Source: a virus. From it: a DNA stretch of 46,495 bases. The position numbers were made by a program, and so were the translations under genes. The notes under the pieces were generated by a model. That model did not search any database. It was given only the letters and a program-made list of their open reading frames with translations, and was not told where the DNA came from. How positions within the stretch are numbered: the stretch's first letter is position 1; every line of letters begins with the position of its first letter. Below are positions 5,917-41,148 of this stretch, piece by piece. The stretch covers positions 1-46,495 of IMG/VR virus record IMGVR_UViG_3300005471_000024. The stretch is one strand, 5' to 3'.

Positions 5917-7028
5917 AGATCGCGATCTTCAGCGACCTGCACGTGCACGCGTGGGCGGAGCACTCGCGCGACGAGGACGGCGCCCCGAGCCGGCTGCGCC
6001 ACTGCGTGTCGGTGCTGGAGCGGATCCGCAAGCACTGCGTCGCCAACGGCATCAGTTCGGTGCTGTTCGGCGGGGACCTGTTCCACAAGCGCGGCGTGCT
6101 CTACACCCTGCCATACAACCTAGTGGTCGGGGAGCTCGCCGCGTGGCGCGAGTACGGGCTGCGGCTCTATGCGAACGTCGGCAACCACGACATCGCGGAC
6201 CGGCAGGGCGCGGTCCACGCCCTGCAGGCCCTGGAGAGCGCCGGGCTTCTCAGCACGGTCGAGCCCGACGGTTGGGTCAACTGGGTGCTGGACAGCGGGG
6301 TCGAGGACGACCCGGGAGTGTACGTGACCGCGGTGGCGTACTGCCCGGGAGCTGACGAGCTGCGTCGTCGGGCGCTCGCCGCCCTGAAGGAGCGGGACGA
6401 GGAGGGGACTGACGGTGCGTTCACGATCGGCCTGTTCCACCACGGGTTCCGCGGCGCGAGGGTCGGGACGTCCCTCGAGTACGTCGTGAAGGAGGACGCC
6501 GACCCCGACCAGTGGTCGGTCGGGTTCGACGCGATGTTCTCCGGGCACTACCATGCACACCAGGAGATCGGCACGCGCGGGAACGCCTGGTACGTCGGGT
6601 CGCCGATGGAGTTCGTCCGCGGCGAGGTCAGCCCTAAGGGCTTCCTCGTGCTCGACACGGTCGAGGCGGAGTTCGAGCGCGTCGATCTCGACCTGCCGCG
6701 GTTCGTCAAGCTCACCGGCGCGGAGATCGCCGACGGCGACTTCGACGTCGAGGCGCACGTCCGGGGCAACTTCGTCGACGTCGTGTTCGACAGCCTGCCG
6801 GTGTCCTGGGAACAGGTCGACGCCACGCTCCGCAAGCTCGGCGCGCTCGGCGTCAGCGCCAAGCCGACGCGCGAGGACGGGCCGTCCGCGGAGGTTCGCC
6901 TGCGAGTCGACCCGGCCGCCGGCGACCGCCAGCTGCTCGAGGCATACATGGACCACGTCGAGGTCGGGTCGGAGCGCGACGACCTGCTCCGGGTCGGGCT
7001 CGAACTACTGGAGGAGGTGACGCAATGA
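5913..7028 (+). CDS. sbcD: SbcD/Mre11-like DNA nuclease subunit (T4 gp47 type)
   Basis: Metallophosphoesterase subunit of the SbcCD/Mre11-Rad50 complex (371 aa), which processes DNA ends and hairpins. All five phosphoesterase motifs are visible: DLHVH (D8, H10), GGDLFH (D55), GNHD (91-93), the HH of LFHHGF (about 175) and SGHYHAH (about 210). The C-terminal part (about 255-371) would be the cap and SbcC-binding region. The GTG start overlaps the previous stop. The partner ATPase gene lies about 2.5 kb downstream at 9551, with six small genes between them, a spacing also seen in other phages with gp46/gp47-type proteins. Confidence 0.92.
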   Translation: MKIAIFSDLHVHAWAEHSRDEDGAPSRLRHCVSVLERIRKHCVANGISSVLFGGDLFHKRGVLYTLPYNLVVGELAAWREYGLRLYANVGNHDIADRQGAVHALQALESAGLLSTVEPDGWVNWVLDSGVEDDPGVYVTAVAYCPGADELRRRALAALKERDEEGTDGAFTIGLFHHGFRGARVGTSLEYVVKEDADPDQWSVGFDAMFSGHYHAHQEIGTRGNAWYVGSPMEFVRGEVSPKGFLVLDTVEAEFERVDLDLPRFVKLTGAEIADGDFDVEAHVRGNFVDVVFDSLPVSWEQVDATLRKLGALGVSAKPTREDGPSAEVRLRVDPAAGDRQLLEAYMDHVEVGSERDDLLRVGLELLEEVTQ

Positions 7029-14870: not shown

Positions 14871-15203
14871 ATGACGAGCGAAGCGGACAACCTGGTCGCC
14901 ATGGCGCAGAAGCAGCTCGACGAGCACAAGGAGTGGCTCGCCGGGCAGATCGTGGAGATCCCGCCCGACATCCTGAAGGTCGGCCAGATGCTGCTGCTCG
15001 CTCAGCAGGCGCGCCAGATCACGCTCCGCGTGGCCCAGGCCGCCAAGGTCGTCAGCGTGGTCTGGGAGTACCCGGACGAGCTGGCCGCGTGGCTCCAGTC
15101 CGACCTCGCGCCCAGGCACCTGCGCGACGACTTCGCCGGCGGCCACGTGGTCGACCCCAACAAGCCGCTCACGTCGGTGAGGCGCGTCCATGACGAGACC
15201 TAG
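14871..15203 (+). CDS. Hypothetical protein
   Basis: A 110-aa mostly helical protein with the clearest copy of the recurrent leader AAGAGGACCAAGAGG, followed by AGGAGACGG and ATG. No family recognised. Its end overlaps the resolvase-like gene by 14 bases. Confidence 0.65.
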   Translation: MTSEADNLVAMAQKQLDEHKEWLAGQIVEIPPDILKVGQMLLLAQQARQITLRVAQAAKVVSVVWEYPDELAAWLQSDLAPRHLRDDFAGGHVVDPNKPLTSVRRVHDET

Positions 15204-15900
15204 CATTCACGACGAGCTGCAGCAGAACGGCGGCTACCGGCGCGTGGGGAAGGACCTCGACGCGCTCAAGACGGCGCTGCGCGAGAGCGCCGGCAAGGGA
15301 GCCAGCCGCGGCAAGGCTGGGCGCGAGCCGGTCACCTCGGTCGCCAAGGTCGAGTCCGACCGCGCACGCAAGAACAGCCGGGTGAAGGGCACCCGCGCCG
15401 AGCTCGACGTCGCCGAGATGTTCTCGCGGTGGTGCGGCGAGGTCGTCCGCCGCACGCCGGGGAGCGGCGGGTGGTCGAGCGCCAAGTTCGGGGTGACCGC
15501 CGACCTCGTGTGCCCGAACAAGAGGTTCCCCTTTCACGTCGAGGTCAAGCACCGCGAGGGCTGGGCGCTCGACGACCTCGTCACCGGCGCGCGCCGCGAG
15601 CACGACAAGAGCATCGTGCAGTGGTGGAGACAGTGCGTGGATTCGTGTCCCCGCGAGAGCCTCGGCAAGGCTGGGCTCCATCTGGCGAAGGCGCCGCTGC
15701 TCGTGTTCCGCCGCAACTGGCAGCCGTGGCTGGTGATGATGCGGGACCTCACGTTCAGCAACGAGGTCAACGACGCGGGTCCCGCTCGGTTCACACTGCC
15801 GTGGGCGGAGTGCCCGGACGTCGCGGTGATGAGGCTCGAAGTGTTCCTCGACCTCGAGCCCGTCCCCAAGGGTCTCAAGAACCACAGGAGGGATCGGTGA
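15190..15900 (+). CDS. PD-(D/E)XK nuclease, Holliday-junction resolvase (Hjc)-like
   Basis: A 236-aa protein with the endonuclease core of Hjc-like resolvases: E71 in KGTRAELDVAEMF, a loop rich in Gly and Ser (RTPGSGGWSS), D105 in TADLV, and E118/K120 in HVEVKHRE. This matches the Glu...Asp...Glu-x-Lys pattern of the fold. About 60 extra N-terminal residues are basic and probably flexible. It would cut branched recombination or replication intermediates before packaging. Phages often use such nucleases instead of RuvC, which matters here because RuvB is also encoded but RuvC is not seen. Another role for the nuclease fold cannot be excluded. Confidence 0.75.
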   Translation: MTRPSIHDELQQNGGYRRVGKDLDALKTALRESAGKGASRGKAGREPVTSVAKVESDRARKNSRVKGTRAELDVAEMFSRWCGEVVRRTPGSGGWSSAKFGVTADLVCPNKRFPFHVEVKHREGWALDDLVTGARREHDKSIVQWWRQCVDSCPRESLGKAGLHLAKAPLLVFRRNWQPWLVMMRDLTFSNEVNDAGPARFTLPWAECPDVAVMRLEVFLDLEPVPKGLKNHRRDR

Positions 15901-23027: not shown

Positions 23028-24821
23028 TCACTCGAACGAGAAATTGAACCGCGACTGCTTGCTGAGCCGCTCCATGCAGAGCAGCGCGCTGCCGAACGCG
23101 TGGGCGAGGTGGTCCTCGCCGCTGGTCTTGACCGTCTCGACGACCTGCTTGGTCTCCTCGTCGATCTCGCGGAACGGGACGAGCGATTTCAGGTGGCGCT
23201 TGAGGGCGTCGACTATCGGGATCTCGAGGTTGGGGAACCCGATCTCGCGCTCCTTGACCACGCGCGCCGCGTTCTTGAGCTGGATCAGGCGCGAGACCGT
23301 CACCCGCGCGCGGCTCGGGTCGCTCCACTCCGGCACGAACGTCTTCGACGTCTTCGGGTTCTGGTCGTACTGCTGTATCCAGAACTTGCCCTCGTCGCCG
23401 TTCGGGCACATCGCGCGGAGCATCAGCGCGTTGCGGTCCTTGCCGTAGCCCGCGTCCGCCGCACCCATGTCCGGGTTGAACTGGTTGACGTAGCTGAGGA
23501 CCCTCTTGGCGCTCTCGAGCTCGACCTGGGTGTCCTCGAAGACGTCGACCCCGATGACGTACGGGCGCTGGTTGTACTTGTTGCGCCCGAGCACGACGAC
23601 CCAGTTCAGGTTGCCCCAGTCGACGCCGTACGTCACGTGCGACCACGCCGGCGTGCGCGACGTGTACAGCTGGTGGCCGGCGCACGACCTCTCGAAGTCG
23701 ACGTCGTTGAGCATCTCCATGTCGGAGCCGGCCGGCACGCCGACGACGTAGTTCAGCCAGATCTCCGGGAACCGCATATCGATCTTGTCCTGCATCACCT
23801 GCGTCGCGGAGATCCACGCCGCCATGAGCTGGGAGATCGCGTAGCCGCGGATGTGCTTCCGGTCGGGGTACTTCGGGACCCACTCGCCGCTGTACACGCG
23901 GTCGAGCTCGCCGCGGCACTTCTGCTTCCGGCACTGGAACTCGAAGGCGCCGGGCGGGAGCTCCTGGCAGCCGATCGGGAAGCTCTTCACCTGGATGATG
24001 TTCTCCTTGTGGTCGATCGGCTGCCGCTCGCCGCAGCGCTTGCACCTCACCAGCCACGTCTGCTGGTCGCTCTTGGAGAACGGCAGGTCGATGCCCTGGC
24101 GCGGGAGGGTCGGCGTGGAGATCTCGCGGAAGAAGCCCCACTTGCTGGACTTGAGCGCCTCCTTGAAGGCGAACTCGATCTTGTCCCGCATCCGGTCCTT
24201 CTCGTCGAGCGTGACGCCGTCGGCCGGTTCGCCCTCGCCGAGGTTGGACTCCCACGCCGACCTGAACAGCCAGTAGCTGTCGCCGACGCGCCGGGTGAAC
24301 ACCTGGTTCGGCGTCCCGACGAGCGCGGCCATGCGCGGCGTGTCCGCGAACGCCGCCGCGACGCGCGTGTTGCTGAAGTCGGTGAGCTGCTTCTCGCGAG
24401 GGAACGTGGTGATCCACTTCGTCCCCGGGTGGTGGGCGAGGAAGTGGAACACCTCGTTCTCGGACACCTCGGTCACGCCCACCTGCCGCGACTTCTCGTA
24501 GACCTTGTGCTTGTGCATGTCGCGCATCGGCTGGCGCTGCCACGGCCGGTGCCGCTGGAGGCGCCCCAGCACCTCGGTGTCGTAGTCGCTGTCGGCCACG
24601 AGCGTCCGGCGGAGCTCCCCGAGCGACTCGTCGGTCAGGGCGCGCGTGTTGTCGAAGATGATCGGGTCGCCCTTCACCCGGCGGTTGAGCATGCACCACA
24701 CCACCGGGTCCCGCTCCGCGATGGCCTCCAGTCCGGTCATCGCGTCGGTCTCCGGCGGCAGGTCGATGAGCGTCGATATCTTCACTGGGTCAGCATCGCG
24801 GAAAGTGAGGAGGCGTTCCAC
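23028..24821 (-). CDS. terL: Terminase large subunit (DNA-packaging ATPase-nuclease)
   Basis: Packaging motor protein (597 aa, GTG start). The ATPase domain has a terminase-type Walker A, KSRQVGVTE (110-118), and Walker B, VTLDEKDRM (D206, E207). Two Cys pairs (RCKRCGE, QCRKQKCRG) then give a zinc-binding insertion. The RNase H-like nuclease domain shows YGVDWGN, AADAGYGKDRN and EDHLAHAFGSALL with the expected acidic residues. GGAGGAG lies directly against the GTG, which is closer than usual. No better start was found before an in-frame stop at 24918-24920. An inverted repeat lies upstream at 24923-24965. Confidence 0.93.
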   Translation of the reverse strand: MERLLTFRDADPVKISTLIDLPPETDAMTGLEAIAERDPVVWCMLNRRVKGDPIIFDNTRALTDESLGELRRTLVADSDYDTEVLGRLQRHRPWQRQPMRDMHKHKVYEKSRQVGVTEVSENEVFHFLAHHPGTKWITTFPREKQLTDFSNTRVAAAFADTPRMAALVGTPNQVFTRRVGDSYWLFRSAWESNLGEGEPADGVTLDEKDRMRDKIEFAFKEALKSSKWGFFREISTPTLPRQGIDLPFSKSDQQTWLVRCKRCGERQPIDHKENIIQVKSFPIGCQELPPGAFEFQCRKQKCRGELDRVYSGEWVPKYPDRKHIRGYAISQLMAAWISATQVMQDKIDMRFPEIWLNYVVGVPAGSDMEMLNDVDFERSCAGHQLYTSRTPAWSHVTYGVDWGNLNWVVVLGRNKYNQRPYVIGVDVFEDTQVELESAKRVLSYVNQFNPDMGAADAGYGKDRNALMLRAMCPNGDEGKFWIQQYDQNPKTSKTFVPEWSDPSRARVTVSRLIQLKNAARVVKEREIGFPNLEIPIVDALKRHLKSLVPFREIDEETKQVVETVKTSGEDHLAHAFGSALLCMERLSKQSRFNFSFE

Positions 24822-28355: not shown

Positions 28356-30614
28356 TCAGGAACCGACGTGGATGTTGAACACGCGCTGCTTCTTGCCCTG
28401 CTGGACCCGGGCGAGGAAGCTCGTGCGCTTCGTCGACGAGAAGCCGAGGCCCGCCAGCGCTCCCTCGGTGGGCTGGCACTTGGTCTTGTCCCCGATCACC
28501 TCGAACACCTTGCGGTGCGGCTCGAGGCGCGGGTGCAGGAACTCGTTGTAGATGCCGCGCGTGGGCTCGTCGCACGTACACCCGCGCAGGATGAAGAACG
28601 TGTGCTTGTTGCCCACGGCGTTCGAGCCCCAGTAGTTCGGGCTGAGCGTGACGGCGTCGACCTGGACGTACTGCTCGGTCGTGAGTCCCCACTTGGTCAC
28701 GGCGATGTTCGACGCCGTGATGGTAGGGTCCATGATCTCGGCGCGGTCGATCGCGCCCTCCTTCATGTGCAGGGTCACGACGTGGACGTCCTGCTTGTGG
28801 CGGACGGTCTTGTTGTAGGAGAAGTGCTTGAGCTCGCCGCCGCACTCCACCTCGACCACGAAGCCGGCGTTGCTGGTCTCGCGCTGGCAGTAGTTGTTGA
28901 TGACGACCCGGTAGGCGCCGCTGGTCATCTTGTCCATCCAGACGACGTTCTCCACGGGCTCGCGCGTCGTGCCGCTGCCTGCGTTCATGTCGACGTCGAG
29001 CACGCCGCCGGTCCAGCCGCGCTTGTTGCCGAAGTAGATGTGCTCGTGCAGGCCGCGGGTGCCGCGGCCGGCCGGCTCGTGGACGTGCAGGTCGAGGTCG
29101 TCGAAGTTGGACCACGACAGCGAGATGCGGAGGGCCGCGCCCTCGACCTTGCCGCCGGCCTTCTTGACGCGCTCGGCGATCGAGTCGGTGACGTTGCCGC
29201 CGTAGCTCCAGGCGAAGTCGTTGGTCCAGCGGAACAGCTGCCGGGGCTCCGGGTTCACGGGTGCGGTCAGCGACATCAGGTTGCCGAGGTGCTCGCCCTT
29301 GAGCAGGACCTCCACGCTCGTCGCCGCCGGCAGCACCTGCTCGACGAAGGTCTCGAGCCCGATGTCCTCGGCGCGCTCCTCGTCCTTCTTCGTGCTCTGC
29401 GGGTTCGCCGTCGTCGCGACCTTCATGAGGGCGTCCGCGAGCCCGCCCTTCATGGCGGGCTTGACGCTGCCGTCGACCCACAGCACGTCGTTGACAGAGA
29501 CGTCGCCGATGGTGGCGAAGCGGCGCTCCAGCGCCGGCTCGAGGCCCAGCGCCTCGATGGTCTCCATCGCCTTCTTCACCATGGCCGGCGTGATGACGGC
29601 GCTGGTGCGCTTGTAGTTGGTCGGCGCCACCTTCGTCTCGAACGAGGCGACGGCTCGCTCGACGTCCACGCCCTCGCTCAGGTCCTGCGCGAGGGTGCCG
29701 ATCACCGTGTTGCGGAAGCGCGACGCGGGGCCTGTGGCGTTGGTCCAGGCGAAGATGGCCTGCGTGTGCGCGTCCTTGGACAGGAACGCGCGCTGCGCCG
29801 CCATGAACTGCGCGACCGCGGCCTTGTGCTCGGCGCCGCGGTACAGGTTGTTGGCCTCGATGAGCGCGAGCACCGTGTCCAGCGCCGACGGCGCCAGCTC
29901 GACGAGGCCGCGGGTGAAGACCTGCACCGTGGTGCGGTAGTCGCCGCGGGCCTGGTCGGGCGACGCGGCCCGCAGCGCCTCGGGGATCAGACCCGTGTGC
30001 AGGTGCCTCCAGGTGCGCGCCACGCCCTCGTCGAGCGACCGCGTGACGTCGGCGCCGAAGCTGGTCTCGTTCCGGCCGACCCGGTAGAGGTCCGAGATGC
30101 CCTTGGCGAGCACGGCGTCGCGCAGCGCGTCGGCCACGAACTCGTACGGGTACGGCGCCTTCTTCGCCGCCTCGTCCCAGACGGTGCGGACTGCGCCCTG
30201 GTCGTTGACGGCGACGACGTTGCCGGCGCGCCGGATGAAGTGCCGGCAGCACGAGCAGTCGTGCTCGGTCTGCTTCCGGTAGAGAGGGTTGGTGCCGGCG
30301 GGGAACGCCTCCAGGTAGCGCCGGTACAGCGCGTCGCCGTCCGCGCCAGTGACGTAGACCTGCGGGGCGCCGGCGACGGCCTGGAAGGAGGCGGCCACGA
30401 TCTTCGCGAATGTCGGGAACTTGTTGGTGGTCATCTTTGTGGTTTTCCTTTTGGTCCTCTTCTGCTCGGACGACGCCGCGATCTGCTCCTGCATCAGCCC
30501 GTGGAGCTTCGCCTGGCACCGCGAGCAGCCGGCGAGGTGGGTGCGGAACGACTCCGCCTGCGCCTCGTCTAGCTCGTGGTCGAAGAACAGCTCCAGGTCG
30601 GGGCAGTCAGCCAC
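28356..30614 (-). CDS. Large phage protein: anti-sigma-type zinc finger fused to a YfaP-like C-terminal domain
   Basis: A 752-aa reading frame starting at GTG directly after a promoter. Residues 1-45 look like the zinc-binding domain of anti-sigma factors: DLELFFDHELDEAQAE followed by H-x3-C-x2-C (THLAGCSRC). A basic linker follows, then a second start (ATG at 30434, residue 61) preceded by AGAGGACCAAAAGG, a copy of the recurrent leader. The body has HDCSCCRHF (about 105) and long helices. The C-terminal region has LSWSNFDDLDLHVHEP, GGVLDVDMNAG and GAYRVVINNY, resembling the YfaP/DUF2135 beta-sandwich. Two isoforms are likely. Function unknown; the short form is the phage-type protein, and the long form might bind a sigma factor. 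Confidence 0.75.
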   Translation of the reverse strand: MADCPDLELFFDHELDEAQAESFRTHLAGCSRCQAKLHGLMQEQIAASSEQKRTKRKTTKMTTNKFPTFAKIVAASFQAVAGAPQVYVTGADGDALYRRYLEAFPAGTNPLYRKQTEHDCSCCRHFIRRAGNVVAVNDQGAVRTVWDEAAKKAPYPYEFVADALRDAVLAKGISDLYRVGRNETSFGADVTRSLDEGVARTWRHLHTGLIPEALRAASPDQARGDYRTTVQVFTRGLVELAPSALDTVLALIEANNLYRGAEHKAAVAQFMAAQRAFLSKDAHTQAIFAWTNATGPASRFRNTVIGTLAQDLSEGVDVERAVASFETKVAPTNYKRTSAVITPAMVKKAMETIEALGLEPALERRFATIGDVSVNDVLWVDGSVKPAMKGGLADALMKVATTANPQSTKKDEERAEDIGLETFVEQVLPAATSVEVLLKGEHLGNLMSLTAPVNPEPRQLFRWTNDFAWSYGGNVTDSIAERVKKAGGKVEGAALRISLSWSNFDDLDLHVHEPAGRGTRGLHEHIYFGNKRGWTGGVLDVDMNAGSGTTREPVENVVWMDKMTSGAYRVVINNYCQRETSNAGFVVEVECGGELKHFSYNKTVRHKQDVHVVTLHMKEGAIDRAEIMDPTITASNIAVTKWGLTTEQYVQVDAVTLSPNYWGSNAVGNKHTFFILRGCTCDEPTRGIYNEFLHPRLEPHRKVFEVIGDKTKCQPTEGALAGLGFSSTKRTSFLARVQQGKKQRVFNIHVGS

Positions 30615-32748: not shown

Positions 32749-32969
32749 GACGTCACCGCCTGCAACACGCGGAGCCCATACTCGATGAGGAGAGTCGCCA
32801 GCTCCTTAGTCTCCAGTTTGTACTTCTGTTCGATCGCTATGGCGGCTCTGGTGAGTTCGACCCTCGCGTCGGCGACGCGGATGCCGCGGGTGCGCGCTGT
32901 ACGAACCTTCTTACTGGCGGCCACGATCCGAGATGCCGTGCTCGCTGGACGTCCTCCGGTGACTCTCAC
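32745..32969 (-). CDS. Small hypothetical protein next to RuvB
   Basis: A 74-aa basic protein with GTGA overlaps at both ends, directly downstream of ruvB. The C-terminal helices (ARVELTRAAIAIEQKYKLETKELATLLIEYGLRVL) could form a small helical hairpin. No family recognised. Confidence 0.55.
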   Translation of the reverse strand: MRVTGGRPASTASRIVAASKKVRTARTRGIRVADARVELTRAAIAIEQKYKLETKELATLLIEYGLRVLQAVTS

Positions 32970-33964
32970 GACGTCACCTCCGGCGCTGGGTTGACGGCTG
33001 GCCGCCGAGCGCGTCCGCGCTCGGTGTGCCGGTGCAGGTGCTTGACCGCGTCCGGCAGGGCGATCCGGCCCTTCGGGGTGCGGGCGATCAGGCCGAGCTC
33101 GAGGAGCACCGGCTCGATGATGCCCTCGATGGTGCCGCGCTCGATGCCGAGCTGCGCCGCGAGGGTCGTCACGCCGACCGGCGAGCCGAGCCGCTCGCAC
33201 AGCACGCCGAGGTACTCGCGGTCCTTGGGGTCGAGCCCGAGCGAGTCGAGCCCGAGCGCGTCGAACGTGGCGTCGGCGATCTCGAGCGTCAGCGCCGGCT
33301 CGCCCGCGGACTCCATGAAGTCCCGGCACGCGCGCACGTGGTTGTTGGTGACGCGCGGCGTGCCGCGGCTGCGCCGGGCGATCGCGTCGGCGACGTCGGA
33401 GCCGAACGCGTCGAGCCGGATCCCGAGGCGACCCATGGTGCGCTTCGCGATGGTCGCGAGGTCGGGCACCGAGTAGTGCTCCAGCTGGAACCTGTAGTTG
33501 AAGCGGTCGCGCAGCGGCCCGGTCAGGAGGTGCGCTCGCGTGGTCGCGCCGACCAGGGTGAACGGCTGCAGCGGGAGCCGCACGACGCGCCGGTTGGCGG
33601 ACAGGTCGACGTGGCCGTCCTCCATCGCCGTGTACAGCAGCTCCTGCATCGTGGACGACAGCCCGTGGATCTCGTCCAGGAACAGCACGTCGTGCCGGCC
33701 GAGCGTGGTGAGCAGCCCGGTGAGCTCGCCCTTGTGCTCGATCGCCGTGGCGACCGCGGCGCAGAGCTTGGTGCCCATCTCGGCGGCGACGATCTGGGCG
33801 AGCGAGGTCTTGCCGCAGCCGGGCATGCCGGCGAGTAGCACGTGGCCACACGCGCGGTCGCCGTGGCGCGCCGCGACCACGGCGCGCCGGAGCACCTCGA
33901 TCGTCGGGCGCTGGCCGACGTAGTCGTCGAACGACGCGGGTCTGACGTCCTTGTCCTTGCTCAC
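32966..33964 (-). CDS. ruvB: RuvB-type Holliday-junction branch-migration ATPase
   Basis: AAA+ motor of the RuvAB branch-migration complex (332 aa, close to cellular RuvB). Seen: RPASFDDYVGQ at the N terminus, Walker A GMPGCGKT (46-53), Walker B LFLDEIH (D97, E98), GATTRAHLLTGPLRDRF with the arginine finger region (about 138-155), RSRGTPRVTNN, and a winged-helix C terminus (GVTTLAAQLGIERGTIEGIIEPVLLELG). RuvB needs RuvA to be loaded on junctions. No RuvA is encoded, but two genes upstream a protein ends in a RuvA domain III-like segment. GTG start overlapping the previous stop. Phage-encoded RuvB is rare. Confidence 0.93.
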   Translation of the reverse strand: MSKDKDVRPASFDDYVGQRPTIEVLRRAVVAARHGDRACGHVLLAGMPGCGKTSLAQIVAAEMGTKLCAAVATAIEHKGELTGLLTTLGRHDVLFLDEIHGLSSTMQELLYTAMEDGHVDLSANRRVVRLPLQPFTLVGATTRAHLLTGPLRDRFNYRFQLEHYSVPDLATIAKRTMGRLGIRLDAFGSDVADAIARRSRGTPRVTNNHVRACRDFMESAGEPALTLEIADATFDALGLDSLGLDPKDREYLGVLCERLGSPVGVTTLAAQLGIERGTIEGIIEPVLLELGLIARTPKGRIALPDAVKHLHRHTERGRARRPAVNPAPEVTS

Positions 33965-34131
33965 GACTTGGTCTCACCGTTCTCGAGGTCGTCGATCAGT
34001 CGGGCGATCTTGGTCGCGGCTTCGTGGATCATCTCGGGTTGTGCGGGGATACTGACGTTGTACCGTCGCAAGGTCTCGTCCAGCTTGGCGGCGACGATCC
34101 CAAAGACGGCTTCTTTCGAGAGCTTGCTCAT
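33961..34131 (-). CDS. Very small protein between RuvB and the coiled-coil gene
   Basis: A 56-aa protein (MSKLSKEAVFGIVAAKLDE ... RLIDDLENGETKS) with an ATGA overlap at its start and a GTGA overlap with ruvB. Coding is supported by the overlaps at both ends and by its amphipathic helical pattern. No family recognised; its place in the ruvB cluster hints at a joint role. Confidence 0.6.
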   Translation of the reverse strand: MSKLSKEAVFGIVAAKLDETLRRYNVSIPAQPEMIHEAATKIARLIDDLENGETKS

Positions 34132-35054
34132 GCGCGCTTCCGGGTCTTCGGTTTGGCGCGGGAGCGCGTCAACTTCCCTTCGCGTCCGGCGCGGTACCGC
34201 TCGATGTCGGCCTCGCGCCGCTTCACCTTGCTGGTGAGCTGCTTGACCAGGCGCTCCAGGCGGAGGTTCTCCGTGGCCAGCACGCCGGCGTTGTCCGCCG
34301 CACCTTGCGCCATGGCGATCGCTTCGTCGCGCTGTTTCATGAACCCGGCGCGCAGCTGGTCGACCTCGGCGTCGCGCTGCGAGACGAAGTGGGCGAGCGC
34401 CTCCTCAGCCTCGCGGCGCTTGGTGGTGAGGAACAGCCGGTCCTTGGAGAGCTCCTCGCACTTCTCCTTGAGCGCGGCGGCATCCGCGAGTGCCTCGGCG
34501 ACCGACTCGGCGCCGAACATCTGGCGGAGCTGGACGTGCAGCGTGCTCAGGTTGCTCTCGGCGTTGTTGGCGCGGTCCTGCGTCGCGAGCAGTTCGCGGC
34601 CGAGCCAGGTCGCACCCTGCTCGGTGGTCAGCTCGTCCATCGGCGCGCCGCCGGCGCGCAGCACGGCGTCGATCCGCGCCGTCTCCGCGCGGCGCCCGCG
34701 GGCCTCCTCGGCGTACTTCTCGGCGCTCCTGGCCTCGTTCGCGCGAGCCAGCTCCTTGTCGTCGCGCTCGTGTGCGAGTCGCTGGATCCGCTCGGGGAGG
34801 TCGATCTCGAGGTCGAGAGTCTCGCCGGTTCGCGGGATCCCGGCGGCGTCGAGCGCCTCCGCGGCGGCGAGCAGCCGGCGCTGGTCTGGGGTGTTCTCGG
34901 GGATGTCTTCTGCGTCGGTCATGGTTGGTCCTCGGTGTGAGCGCCGCCGGCCGTCGAGCACGGCCAGCAGCGGTGTAGCGATCATGATGAGCCCCGCGTA
35001 GGCGATCGCCTCGACCAGGCGCGGGAGTAGGAGTAGATACCTCAGCAGCCTCAC
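34128..35054 (-). CDS. Membrane-anchored coiled-coil protein (possible two starts)
   Basis: A 308-aa frame whose GTG start overlaps the stop of the RuvA-III-like gene. Residues about 1-33 form a hydrophobic membrane helix (LLRYLLLLPRLVEAIAYAGL, MIATPLLAVL), followed by basic residues. From the in-frame ATG at 34922 (residue 45, with AGGACC upstream) the protein is acidic and then mostly coiled coil (about 95-295), ending in a basic tail (RSRAKPKTRKRA). The long form would be an inner-membrane coiled coil; the short form would be soluble. It lies between the RuvA-III-like protein and RuvB, so a shared complex is plausible. No family recognised. Confidence 0.6.
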   Translation of the reverse strand: MRLLRYLLLLPRLVEAIAYAGLIMIATPLLAVLDGRRRSHRGPTMTDAEDIPENTPDQRRLLAAAEALDAAGIPRTGETLDLEIDLPERIQRLAHERDDKELARANEARSAEKYAEEARGRRAETARIDAVLRAGGAPMDELTTEQGATWLGRELLATQDRANNAESNLSTLHVQLRQMFGAESVAEALADAAALKEKCEELSKDRLFLTTKRREAEEALAHFVSQRDAEVDQLRAGFMKQRDEAIAMAQGAADNAGVLATENLRLERLVKQLTSKVKRREADIERYRAGREGKLTRSRAKPKTRKRA

Positions 35055-35626
35055 GGCTTCGCGGCGGCCCGGCGGAGCGCGCAGGCGACCCAGGACTCCA
35101 GGCCGCCAGCGCGCTCCGCGAGCGTGCACGCGTCGAGCGCCGCCTCCGCGGCGGCCCGCTTGTAGCCCGCGCCCGTGAGCGCGGCGACCGCGTCCTCGCG
35201 GATGATCCGAGCGGTCTCCTTCGCCTGCTGCGCGTCCAGCTCGAGGTCGCGCAGGAGCGCGTCGGCCGGCGGGATGATCGGGATCTGCTGCGGGGCCGGC
35301 CGGCGGTAGAGCGTCTCCGCGGCGAGCGGGTCGCGGCTGCGCCTCTTCTCGAGCGGGATGACTCGCGGTTTGCCCGACAGCATGTTGCGCACGCGCTGCT
35401 CGCGCGGTCTCCCGACGACGTCGAGGGCGCTGTGCTCGTCGCCGGCGAGCGTGAACGGGATGTGCTTGGCGTCCCGCCGTGACGGTCCGAGTGCGCGCTC
35501 GTGCACCCTCGGGGTCCTCCCGCGACGCCAGCGCTCCACGCGTCCACGGAGCCAGTAGCCGACCCACAGGGAGGCCAGCGAGCCGACGGAGAATCCGATG
35601 ATCAGGCAGTCCAGCTCCTTGTTCAC
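35051..35626 (-). CDS. Membrane-anchored protein with RuvA domain III-like C terminus
   Basis: A 191-aa protein starting with GTG after ribosome-binding site GGAGGGG. Residues 7-26 (CLIIGFSVGSLASLWVGYWL) are a membrane helix with basic residues after it. The middle (about 35-125) is Arg- and Pro-rich, probably flexible. Residues 141-188 (DAVAALTGAGYKRAAAEAAL ... LESWVACALRRA) follow the RuvA domain III pattern AVAALxxxGYKxxxA...LExxxxxALR, the small helical domain that binds RuvB. The DNA-binding domains I and II of RuvA are absent. Together with ruvB three genes on, it suggests that RuvB is held at the membrane. The domain call is by eye. Confidence 0.65.
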   Translation of the reverse strand: MNKELDCLIIGFSVGSLASLWVGYWLRGRVERWRRGRTPRVHERALGPSRRDAKHIPFTLAGDEHSALDVVGRPREQRVRNMLSGKPRVIPLEKRRSRDPLAAETLYRRPAPQQIPIIPPADALLRDLELDAQQAKETARIIREDAVAALTGAGYKRAAAEAALDACTLAERAGGLESWVACALRRAAAKP

Positions 35627-37822: not shown

Positions 37823-37935
37823 TCCTTGCGGGTGTCGGGTTTACGTTGCGCGCGGCGCCGGATACCCTCGCGGTGGGCTCCGATCAGCACGATCGGACCC
37901 ACCACGAGGAGGAACGCCGCCAGGTAGATGATCAC
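37819..37935 (-). CDS. Very small single-pass membrane protein
   Basis: A 38-aa protein consisting of a membrane helix (VIIYLAAFLLVVGPIVLIGA) and a basic cytoplasmic-type tail (HREGIRRRAQRKPDTRKE). GTG start in a GTGA overlap. Overlaps on both sides and the clear helix support it as real. Function unknown. Confidence 0.6.
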   Translation of the reverse strand: MIIYLAAFLLVVGPIVLIGAHREGIRRRAQRKPDTRKE

Positions 37936-38759
37936 GACTCGATCTCGATCGCCGGGGTCGTCGGCGGGGCGCACGTCGCCGGGATCTCCAGCTGCTCGCC
38001 GCCCTCGATGTCGAGGTCGGCGAAGCGCTGGCGGTCGATGGAGGGCGACGGCTCGACGGCCTCGGCGGGCTCGTTGCTCATGTCGAGGAACGCGATGCGC
38101 GCGCTCTCGATCTGGCCGCGGGCGATGTCGAGGAGCACGGTGTTGCGGTCCTCGCCCTCCTGCTCGATGCGCCTGACGATGGCCGTCGCCGCGGCCCGCG
38201 CCTGCTTGATGGCGGCGTCGACCTTGGCCTTCTTGTCGTCGCTCAGCATGTTGCCGAGCTCGCGGGCGCGGTTGGCCGCCTCGCGGATCTTCTTGGGGTC
38301 GAACTCCTTGACCCCGGCGTCCATGCGCACCACGAGCTCGGCGATCTCCGCCGTGATGGCGCGCGCGGCCTCGGCGTCGTCGCTCGCCACGCGGCCCTTG
38401 AGCGCGTGGACGGTGACCCGGGTGTGGGTGGCCGCGTCGTTGTGCGCGTCCACCATCTGGCGCGCCTGGCGGATGGCCGCGTCGAGCGCGCCCTCCTGGT
38501 CGGCCGGGCAGAGTAGGCCGAACGCCGTGCTGCTGCACACGCGGCTGATCAGCGCGGTCGCCTTGGAGCGGCACGCGGTCGCCGCGTCGTACTCGGCCTT
38601 GTCCTCGATCACGCGGCGGGTCTCCCACCGCGCGACGTCCTGGCCCTCCTCGGCCGGCTTGTCGGTGTCGAGGTCGATGCGCTGGTAGGAGACGCCGCCG
38701 GTCACGGTCGACTTGACCGAGACGAGCAGGCCGGGGCGGATGACGGATGCTTTGGACAT
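37932..38759 (-). CDS. Hypothetical helical protein
   Basis: A 275-aa protein, first gene after the promoter at 38781-38810, with the leader CTGAACCTGGAGACCTGAAC before ATG. The middle is strongly helical (AIRQARQMVDAHNDAATH, IREAANRARELGNMLSDD, IKQARAAATAIVRRIEQE), with an acidic, Pro-rich C terminus. No family recognised. It begins an operon running toward 35689. Confidence 0.65.
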   Translation of the reverse strand: MSKASVIRPGLLVSVKSTVTGGVSYQRIDLDTDKPAEEGQDVARWETRRVIEDKAEYDAATACRSKATALISRVCSSTAFGLLCPADQEGALDAAIRQARQMVDAHNDAATHTRVTVHALKGRVASDDAEAARAITAEIAELVVRMDAGVKEFDPKKIREAANRARELGNMLSDDKKAKVDAAIKQARAAATAIVRRIEQEGEDRNTVLLDIARGQIESARIAFLDMSNEPAEAVEPSPSIDRQRFADLDIEGGEQLEIPATCAPPTTPAIEIES

Positions 38760-39434: not shown

Positions 39435-41066
39435 TCACAGGTCCAGCGTGCGCGTGTCGCCGCCGGCCTCGTCCTCGGGCGTCGACGCCTTGCGCGCCCG
39501 CTCGCGAGCCCAATCGCGCAAGCTGTCCAGACGCTCGCGCGCGGTCTTGGACAGCGGGACGACGGTGCGCGCCGCGGCGTGCAGGTCCTCGGTGCAGATC
39601 TGGCGCTGACCATCCTCGAACGCCGTGAACAAGGCGTCGGGCACGAGCGCGCTGATCTCGGCGCCGGTGAAGCCCTCGGTGAACCGGGCGACCTCGGCGA
39701 GGTCAACCTGAGCCGTGAAGCTGACGCCCTTCTGCACGGTGGGGTCGGTCGGGCGCGCCTCGGGGAAGCGTCGACGCTGGCGGAGCGCCGCGGCGATGAT
39801 CTGCTCGCGCTCCACGCGGGTCGGCAGGTCGACCCAGAAGATCTCGTCGAACCTGCCCTTGCGCAGCAGCTCCGGCGGCAGACCGCGGATCTCGTTCGCG
39901 GTGGCGATGACGAACACGTTGCCCTCGCGCTCCTGCATCCACGAGAGCAGCGTGCCGAGCGCGTCGGCAGCGACGCCGCCGTCGCCGGCCGGCCCACCGG
40001 CACCGGCGAGCGCCTTCTCGATCTCGTCGGCCCACAGTATGCAGGGCGACACGGTCTCCGCGACGCGCAGGGCCTTGCGGATGTTGCCCTCCGACTCCCC
40101 GACGTACTTGCTACGCAAGGCGCCCATGTCCAGGCGCAGGAGCGGCATCTGCCACGCGCTCGCCACGGCCTTCGCGGTGAGGCTCTTGCCGCACCCGGGG
40201 ATGCCGAGGAGGAGCGCGCCGCGCGGCGCGTCCAGGCCGAAGTCCCTGGCCTCCTGGGTGAACGCCGCGCGGCGCGCGCGGAGCCACTGCTTGAGCAGGT
40301 CGAGCCCGCCGATGGCGTCGAGCCCGCGCGGGTCCGGGTCGTGCCACGTGAGCACGCGCTCGCGGGCGATGATCCGGCGCTTCTCCGAGGCCACCATCGC
40401 CGGGTCGATCGTCTTCGTGGTGACGAGCGAGCGGCTGTAGGTGTTGGCGATCTCCTCGGCGCTGAGGCCGAGGGCCGCGTCGATCGCCAGTTCGCGGGCG
40501 CCGTTCGGCGTGGCGGTGTCGCGGATCTCCGCGGGCAGCGCGGTGATCACGTCGTCGATGATCCGCGTGACGTCGTCGCGGTCGGGGAGCGGGTAGTCGA
40601 TGACGGTCGCGCCCGACAGCTCGATGGGAACCTCGCTGCTCGGCGTGAGCAGGATGATCGCCCGCGCCTCGTTCGGCACGGCGCTCTGCAGCTCCCTGCT
40701 CAGCGAGCGCAACGTGCGCAGGATCATCGGGTCGAACCACCTGTGCAGGTCGCGCATGACCAGTATGGTGCGCTGCTTCGTGCCGCGGAGCCAGCGGAGC
40801 GCCGCGTTCGGGTCGCCGTTGCTCTCCACGGTCTTCAGGACCGGCTCGCTCGTCTTCTGGCCGGTCTTCTGGTCGGTCTTCTCGACGACCGTCCACTCCG
40901 TGATGCCCGTGGAGCAGTCCCAGTACCTGATCAGGTACTTCGCTGCCCCGCACGCGTCGGTCAACGCGCGCTCGACGCGCTGCTCCTCGCGCGACGTGAT
41001 CCACAGCAGTGTGTTGCGCGCTCGAAGCAGCGCGGTGATGTCGGCGTTGACTTGCTTGGCGTTCAT
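39435..41066 (-). CDS. Ycf46-like AAA+ ATPase
   Basis: A 543-aa ATPase. The start is ATG 41066, after AGAGAGGACGCA. The N-terminal half (about 1-230) is a degenerate AAA-like domain without a Walker A motif (LVMRDLHRWFD is visible). Residues about 250-500 form an active AAA+ domain: DAIGGLDLLKQWL, GIPGCGKSLTAK (K294), SKYVGESEGNIRKAL, CILWADEIEKAL (D347, E348), ATANEIRGLPPELLRKGRFDEIFWVDLP. This layout matches Ycf46 proteins of chloroplasts and cyanobacteria and their phage relatives, whose role is poorly known. It has its own palindromic promoter. It would remodel some protein or complex during infection. Confidence 0.9.
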   Translation of the reverse strand: MNAKQVNADITALLRARNTLLWITSREEQRVERALTDACGAAKYLIRYWDCSTGITEWTVVEKTDQKTGQKTSEPVLKTVESNGDPNAALRWLRGTKQRTILVMRDLHRWFDPMILRTLRSLSRELQSAVPNEARAIILLTPSSEVPIELSGATVIDYPLPDRDDVTRIIDDVITALPAEIRDTATPNGARELAIDAALGLSAEEIANTYSRSLVTTKTIDPAMVASEKRRIIARERVLTWHDPDPRGLDAIGGLDLLKQWLRARRAAFTQEARDFGLDAPRGALLLGIPGCGKSLTAKAVASAWQMPLLRLDMGALRSKYVGESEGNIRKALRVAETVSPCILWADEIEKALAGAGGPAGDGGVAADALGTLLSWMQEREGNVFVIATANEIRGLPPELLRKGRFDEIFWVDLPTRVEREQIIAAALRQRRRFPEARPTDPTVQKGVSFTAQVDLAEVARFTEGFTGAEISALVPDALFTAFEDGQRQICTEDLHAAARTVVPLSKTARERLDSLRDWARERARKASTPEDEAGGDTRTLDL

Positions 41067-41102
41067 TGCGTCCTCTCTGGTCTGGGTCCTGTGTTGGGTG
41101 GG

Positions 41103-41132
41103 AGCATGAGGCTTACGGTTGACAATGTCAAC
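41103..41132 (-). promoter_or_regulatory. Promoter with palindromic -35 (operator copy 7)
   Basis: GTTGACAATGTCAAC (41118-41132) is a perfect inverted repeat. The minus strand reads TTGACA, 17 bases, CATGCT (41108-41103), about 36 bases before the ATG of the AAA+ gene. Confidence 0.65.
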
Positions 41133-41148
41133 AGTAACCCGCACGCCA

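Follow-up and report, generated by a model that had tools for sequence, protein, structure and literature searches.

RuvB is usually considered alongside RuvA and in the context of junctions, and a phage locus that encodes a complete RuvB where no RuvA is found raises the question of what holds and drives such a motor. The locus lies in the IMG/VR virus record IMGVR_UViG_3300005471_000024, a complete IMG/VR entry of 46,495 bases that is classed as linear and was analyzed at its full length (hereafter, the window). Upstream of its ruvB gene, and on the same strand, is encoded a small protein, here called the adapter, in which a predicted N-terminal membrane helix is combined with a C-terminal part resembling domain III of RuvA. 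We propose, with a probability of about one half, that this membrane adapter replaces the junction-binding part of RuvA as tether and stator for the phage RuvB motor.

Phage RuvB and its domain III-like neighbor

The motor gene (32966..33964, minus strand) was assigned to RuvB, an AAA+ motor acting on double-stranded DNA (dsDNA), by Pfam, NCBIfam, alignments with phage and cellular RuvB, and a tree. Its product matches RuvB_N (1.4e-48), AAA_lid_4 and RuvB_C, all over their cut-offs, and scores 330.1 bits against NF000868 (cut-off 282) and 294.9 bits against TIGR00635, slightly under the cut-off of 299.05. Walker A/B, the arginine finger, sensor 2 and a winged helix with a basic DNA-binding wing hairpin are all present in the alignment with cellular RuvB (GMPGCGKTS, LFLDEIH, LRDRF, RGTPR, and RTPKGR where the wing-hairpin pattern is R-T-P-R-G-R), and the catalytic and DNA-binding residues are retained. 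These profile matches and alignments identify the product as a true full-length RuvB. Its clade comprises eight distinct members, of which the other seven are 69-90% identical to the window RuvB, and in the tree the phage RuvBs group as one clade with support 100/100, separated from cellular RuvB by a very long stem (length 3.0).

Neither RuvA_N (PF01330) nor RuvC (PF02075) has a match in the entire record, and RuvA_N has none in 18 related records either, these 19 records being partial genomes. The initial annotation, whose coordinates and open reading frames (ORFs) are correct, had described exactly this combination of a complete RuvB with neither RuvA nor RuvC in the window, and had further read the C-terminus of the adapter as a RuvA domain III-like segment to be checked by fold prediction; the sequence and fold comparisons given below bear this out.

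The adapter (35051..35626, minus strand; 191 amino acids) has a GTG start preceded by a Shine-Dalgarno-like GGAGGGG. It consists of the predicted membrane helix (residues ~5-26), a disordered Arg/Pro-rich middle (residues 38-120) and the helical domain III-like part (residues ~139-189, approximately 35060..35212 on the minus strand), the last delimited by model and structure comparison. Its AlphaFold model, built with six sequences, has a helix at 3-37, a middle of low confidence and the helices expected of domain III at 121-152, 157-165, 169-172 and 176-189, with a predicted local distance difference test (pLDDT) score of 84-92 over most of 121-189. The whole-RuvA model TIGR00084 aligns to it over the C-terminal 51 positions alone (14.9 bits; cut-off 85), no helix-hairpin-helix domain II was found in it, and the remainder is membrane helix and disordered linker. 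Lacking domains I and II, the adapter is not a RuvA.

The window adapter matches Pfam RuvA_C over residues 143-185 (E 0.0038, 18.1 bits), a match which taken singly is suggestive only. RuvA_C is nevertheless the leading Pfam family among the adapters and is matched by all seven homologues; six-frame searches give the adapter as the sole RuvA_C place in each record, and the L005 record passes the cut-off (24.7 bits; cut-off 24). A local hidden Markov model (HMM), for which five RuvA domain III sequences were used, was scored on 2,533 ORFs from nine loci and places six adapters at ranks 1-6 and the seventh (L027) at rank 14. Among 12,000 shuffled domains none reaches the three best adapters (16.4-20.8 bits), the top shuffle scoring 12.7, and in sequence the likeness to domain III thus exceeds chance. 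The domain is conserved across adapters, while the middle is poorly alignable and fast-changing, with crude Nei-Gojobori (NG86) ratios of nonsynonymous to synonymous substitution of ~0.3-0.6 and 0.5-1.5, respectively. Invariant residues are R143, D145, A148, A149, L150, G154, Y155, A160, D165, A166, C167, R172, W179 and A183. Among them, L150 is the equivalent of L167 in Escherichia coli RuvA; the equivalent of L170 is A153, a position that is Ala or Ser in all adapters whereas it is Leu or Met in the cellular RuvAs aligned. In E. coli, RuvB activity in vivo is lost with either of the RuvA changes L167A and L170A (PMC2628435).

When the adapter model was compared with known structures, Foldseek returned RuvA at all of PDB ranks 1-25, with probabilities up to 0.99, and VIA-align gave RuvA domain III Z values from 7.4 to 5.5 (root-mean-square deviation 1.2-2.1 A over 46-52 residues), which are modest and in line with a domain of ~50 residues. 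UBA domains, whose fold is alike, ranked beneath RuvA (Z 4.0-5.1). Searches of the adapter against PDB sequences with phmmer and hmmsearch did not find RuvA, which leaves the curated profiles, together with the fold, as the basis of the sequence evidence; a BFVD fold search returned nothing. We conclude that the C-terminal part of the adapter resembles RuvA domain III and is probably homologous to it. It is decidedly unlikely that this part is instead a UBA-like three-helix module which binds another protein, its likeness to RuvA and its proximity to ruvB being functionally unlinked. The presence of UBA domains lower in the fold list, the replaced L170 position and a moderate hhalign probability would all suit such a module, but no UBA family is among the Pfam matches of the seven adapters, RuvA_C leads in every one of them, RuvA fills the Foldseek list to rank 25, and the linkage to ruvB persists even though the intervening genes change.

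This linkage was found in seven distinct phage lineages (the window, L001, L003/L004, L005, L006, L007 and L027), a gene-order search in other phages having been proposed by the initial annotation. The adapter is invariably upstream of ruvB, on the same strand and 0.2-1.6 kb away, and the genes in between differ from phage to phage. L003 and L004 are IMG/VR contigs of different samples with identical proteins across the locus. Outside these loci the adapter was found neither in named phages (tblastn), nor in 84,980 genomes of bacteria and archaea (pattern scan), nor in viral contigs other than the ruvB-linked ones. Two named phages with annotated RuvB, Acinetobacter phage MD-2021a and Wolbachia phage WO, were set aside as carrying an ordinary bacterial ruvA-ruvB in chromosomal surroundings; the phage database entries with a ruvB match in such surroundings, apparently chromosomal DNA, are L048 and L051 (CAKLQF020000007.1, MN180249.1). 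Three further RuvBs from named phages, which are unannotated, served as sequences alone.

The putative docking surface of the phage RuvB

The presensor-1 beta-hairpin of RuvB is the binding site of RuvA domain III. In the alignment it is present in the phage RuvB with its hydrophobic strand residues kept, and an AlphaFold2 (AF2) model places its strands at 118-123 and 126-131, this model being poor (pLDDT 50, alignment of seven sequences) and used for the hairpin alone. The hairpin tip is four residues shorter in 8/8 clade members and in 0/43 of the cellular RuvBs listed, and the alpha-3 motif VEExLYP of cellular RuvB reads MQELLYT in the phage RuvB. As the tip and alpha-3 form the docking site for domain III in cellular RuvB, their change throughout the clade suggests a different partner. 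The Ala/Ser at the L170 position of the adapter may either count against ordinary RuvB activation or, together with the shortened hairpin, mark a re-fitted interface; the two changes would fit a co-evolved, private pair of adapter and RuvB.

The same surface bears on whether the phage RuvB works with the RuvA of its host on Holliday junctions as usual, with the adapter as an additional, competing hairpin ligand by which RuvB is stored, localized or inactivated at the membrane. Cellular RuvA and RuvB are able to cooperate across species (PMC9477746), and the retained catalytic and DNA-binding residues of the phage RuvB agree with such use. L028, a phage RuvB with the hairpin whose record contains no domain III partner that could be found, agrees with it as well and may use host RuvA. 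We nonetheless regard this explanation as unlikely, given the altered tip and alpha-3 in every clade member, the tip deletion that none of the listed cellular RuvBs has, and the long stem that separates the clade from cellular RuvB. The L028 gene itself lies at 5950-6942 of a 172 kb record, with thymidylate synthase-like and dihydrofolate reductase-like genes nearby.

A decoy is conceivable too, in which the adapter sequesters host RuvB on the membrane and thereby stops host branch migration in infection, while the altered hairpin protects the phage RuvB. Competition would come naturally to a domain III that has no junction-binding domains, and the phage hairpin is indeed unlike the cellular type. 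Ala or Ser in place of Leu or Met at the L170 position of all adapters would however be surprising in a protein that mimics host RuvA, and in all seven lineages that have it the adapter gene neighbors the ruvB of the phage itself, which makes the decoy very unlikely.

More distant phage RuvB-like AAA+ proteins (L029 and L031-L036, n=7, encoded at about position 6000) offer a further comparison. They share the AAA+ motor and the RuvB-like C-terminal winged helix with the clade, and their records likewise have no RuvA_N match; unlike the clade, they have lost the hairpin, and no RuvA_C match was found in their records.

Predicted membrane anchoring and the proposed mechanism

The predicted membrane helix of the adapter is backed by conservation, including that of glycines G11, G15 and G23, and the top hydrophobic segment among the 49 window gene products scored lies in this protein, a set to which the small membrane peptide described below does not belong. 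Positive charges follow the helix, so that the C-terminal domain is predicted to lie inside the cell. The initial annotation had likewise assigned a membrane helix to this protein, and the assignment holds as a conserved prediction whose hydrophobicity is only moderate (Kyte-Doolittle (KD) values of 1.4-1.75 across homologues).

In cellular RuvAB, domain III tethers RuvB, promotes nucleotide exchange and ATP hydrolysis, and has a fulcrum role (Wald 2022, PMC9477746). In the phage, the N-terminal helix of the adapter would be embedded in the cytoplasmic membrane and place the C-terminal part on the inner side of the cell boundary, and the flexible linker would present the domain III homologue, which may bind the phage RuvB at its presensor-1 hairpin and helix alpha-3. 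Through this contact a RuvB hexamer would be held and run on phage dsDNA at the membrane. The adapter would serve as its stator, and DNA would move with respect to the membrane rather than to a junction bound by RuvA. The most probable use would be the processing of branched DNA at membrane-associated replication sites, with such DNA supplied by a T4-like recombination set of UvsX, a UvsY-like protein, SbcCD/gp46-47 and a RusA-like resolvase.

Compared with bacterial RuvAB (PDB 1IXS, 7PBL, 7X7P), both systems have a complete RuvB motor whose hairpin carries conserved hydrophobic residues, and, encoded close to ruvB, a helical domain like domain III that is carried by a flexible linker. They differ in that the phage adapter has a membrane helix in place of RuvA domains I and II, in the shorter hairpin tip and the Ala/Ser at the L170 position, and in that other genes separate adapter and ruvB in the phages. 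More tentatively, and a little short of even odds, the whole may be a RuvA-independent RuvB machine in which domain III was detached from the junction-binding core and put on a membrane helix. The outcome would be a dsDNA motor anchored to the membrane and held by a stator, its interface privately co-evolved and marked by the shortened hairpin and the replaced L170.

Several observations weigh against the adapter as tether and stator. The changes in hairpin and alpha-3 are no specific proof, since the phage RuvB is also altered elsewhere (23/125 conserved columns changed), and L028 shows that a phage RuvB can keep the hairpin in a record without a RuvA_C match. The RuvA_C score of the window adapter is under the Pfam cut-off of 24 bits, hhalign gives RuvA domain III a probability of 77.6% over the first two helices alone, the Foldseek E-values are weak (best 0.19) with a score that includes sequence, and VIA Z values below 8 could reflect a common arrangement. 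The residue matching L170 is replaced, and the membrane helix is glycine-rich and of moderate hydrophobicity. For L002, a member of the RuvB clade, no adapter was seen on a contig that ends 3.5 kb upstream of ruvB and has rearranged surroundings. Finally, the large terminase subunit (23028-24821) is nearest to SPO1-type phages of ~130-150 kb (33-36% identity), the record is a fragment of a larger tailed phage, and a distant ruvA could lie outside the sequence available. The interpretation offered by the initial annotation, a RuvB motor brought to the membrane rather than to a junction held by RuvA, is partly supported. Its architecture (RuvB, a RuvA-III-like membrane protein, no RuvA) agrees with the fold comparison and is conserved in synteny, with the absence of RuvA applying to partial genomes only; contact of the domain with RuvB, a membrane location in the cell and the suggested roles of moving branched DNA, replication anchoring or packaging are predictions.

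The terminase also touches on another use of the pair, namely as a membrane-docked DNA pump for packaging or DNA segregation and not for recombination. The RuvB cluster is on the terminase strand, ~8 kb upstream of the terminase gene, and the RuvB hexamer translocates dsDNA (PMC9477746, PMC10272136). However, a terminase motor is encoded by the phage itself, and packaging is normally powered by terminase at the procapsid and not at the membrane, and we consider the pump the least probable of the readings weighed here.

Genomic setting and significance

Between adapter and ruvB, the initial annotation had described one protein (34128-35054) with a membrane helix and a long coiled coil. Both parts exist, and a frame comparison indicates that they are probably two genes, namely a small single-pass membrane peptide of ~43 amino acids (34923..35054, minus strand; VRLLRYLLLLPRLVEAIAYAGLIMIATPLLAVLDGRRR...) and a coiled-coil protein (34128..34922, minus strand) with a likely ATG of its own at 34922, equivalent to the start in the L005 homologue. 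In L003 and L005 the peptide ends at a stop codon of its own, and the coiled coil has a separate start; in the window, which has the internal ATG, and in L001 both lie in one open frame, possibly through fusion or read-through. The pair was not found at the equivalent place in L006, L007 and L027, and neither gene is thus essential to the adapter-RuvB unit. A 56-amino-acid ORF (33961..34131, minus strand) directly precedes RuvB and overlaps both neighbors.

The left arm of the record encodes DNA polymerase, the UvsY-like protein, UvsX, SbcCD/gp46-47 and the RusA-like resolvase (15190-15900). The T4-type recombination system (UvsX, UvsY, gp46/47, UvsW, gp49) is similar in its UvsX, UvsY and gp46/47 components and differs in that the record carries RuvB and a RusA-like resolvase. 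When the terminase was used to look for a complete relative, only fragments were found, and the right half of the record has no near DNA relative among named phages. The RuvB cluster is flanked by large proteins at 28356-30614 and 39435-41144, belonging to PHROG 1735, of unknown function and frequent among phages with Gram-negative hosts, and to PHROG 8638, the latter protein with an AAA+ ATPase region; the two are possibly an ATPase-partner pair. A PHROG 11021 protein (37932-38759) has its sole named relatives in mycobacteriophages, whereas the terminase is SPO1-like, which points to a mosaic ancestry with an unclear host.

The initial annotation had also presented the combination as one not known from described systems, and in the open-access literature we found neither a membrane-borne domain III nor a phage RuvB with such a partner. 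A phage protein annotated RuvA_C in one paper is alike by its annotation, and that paper names no RuvB.

A domain III that is split off and membrane-anchored would provide a direct natural test of whether this domain alone holds and drives RuvB, and its sufficiency is a mechanistic question from recent cryo-EM work. The natural Ala/Ser at the L170 position and the shortened RuvB hairpin form a ready set of swap mutants for this purpose. If the proposed mechanism is true, RuvB motors would be addressable by domain swapping to a place other than the Holliday junction, and the locus would indicate DNA movement at the membrane during phage replication.

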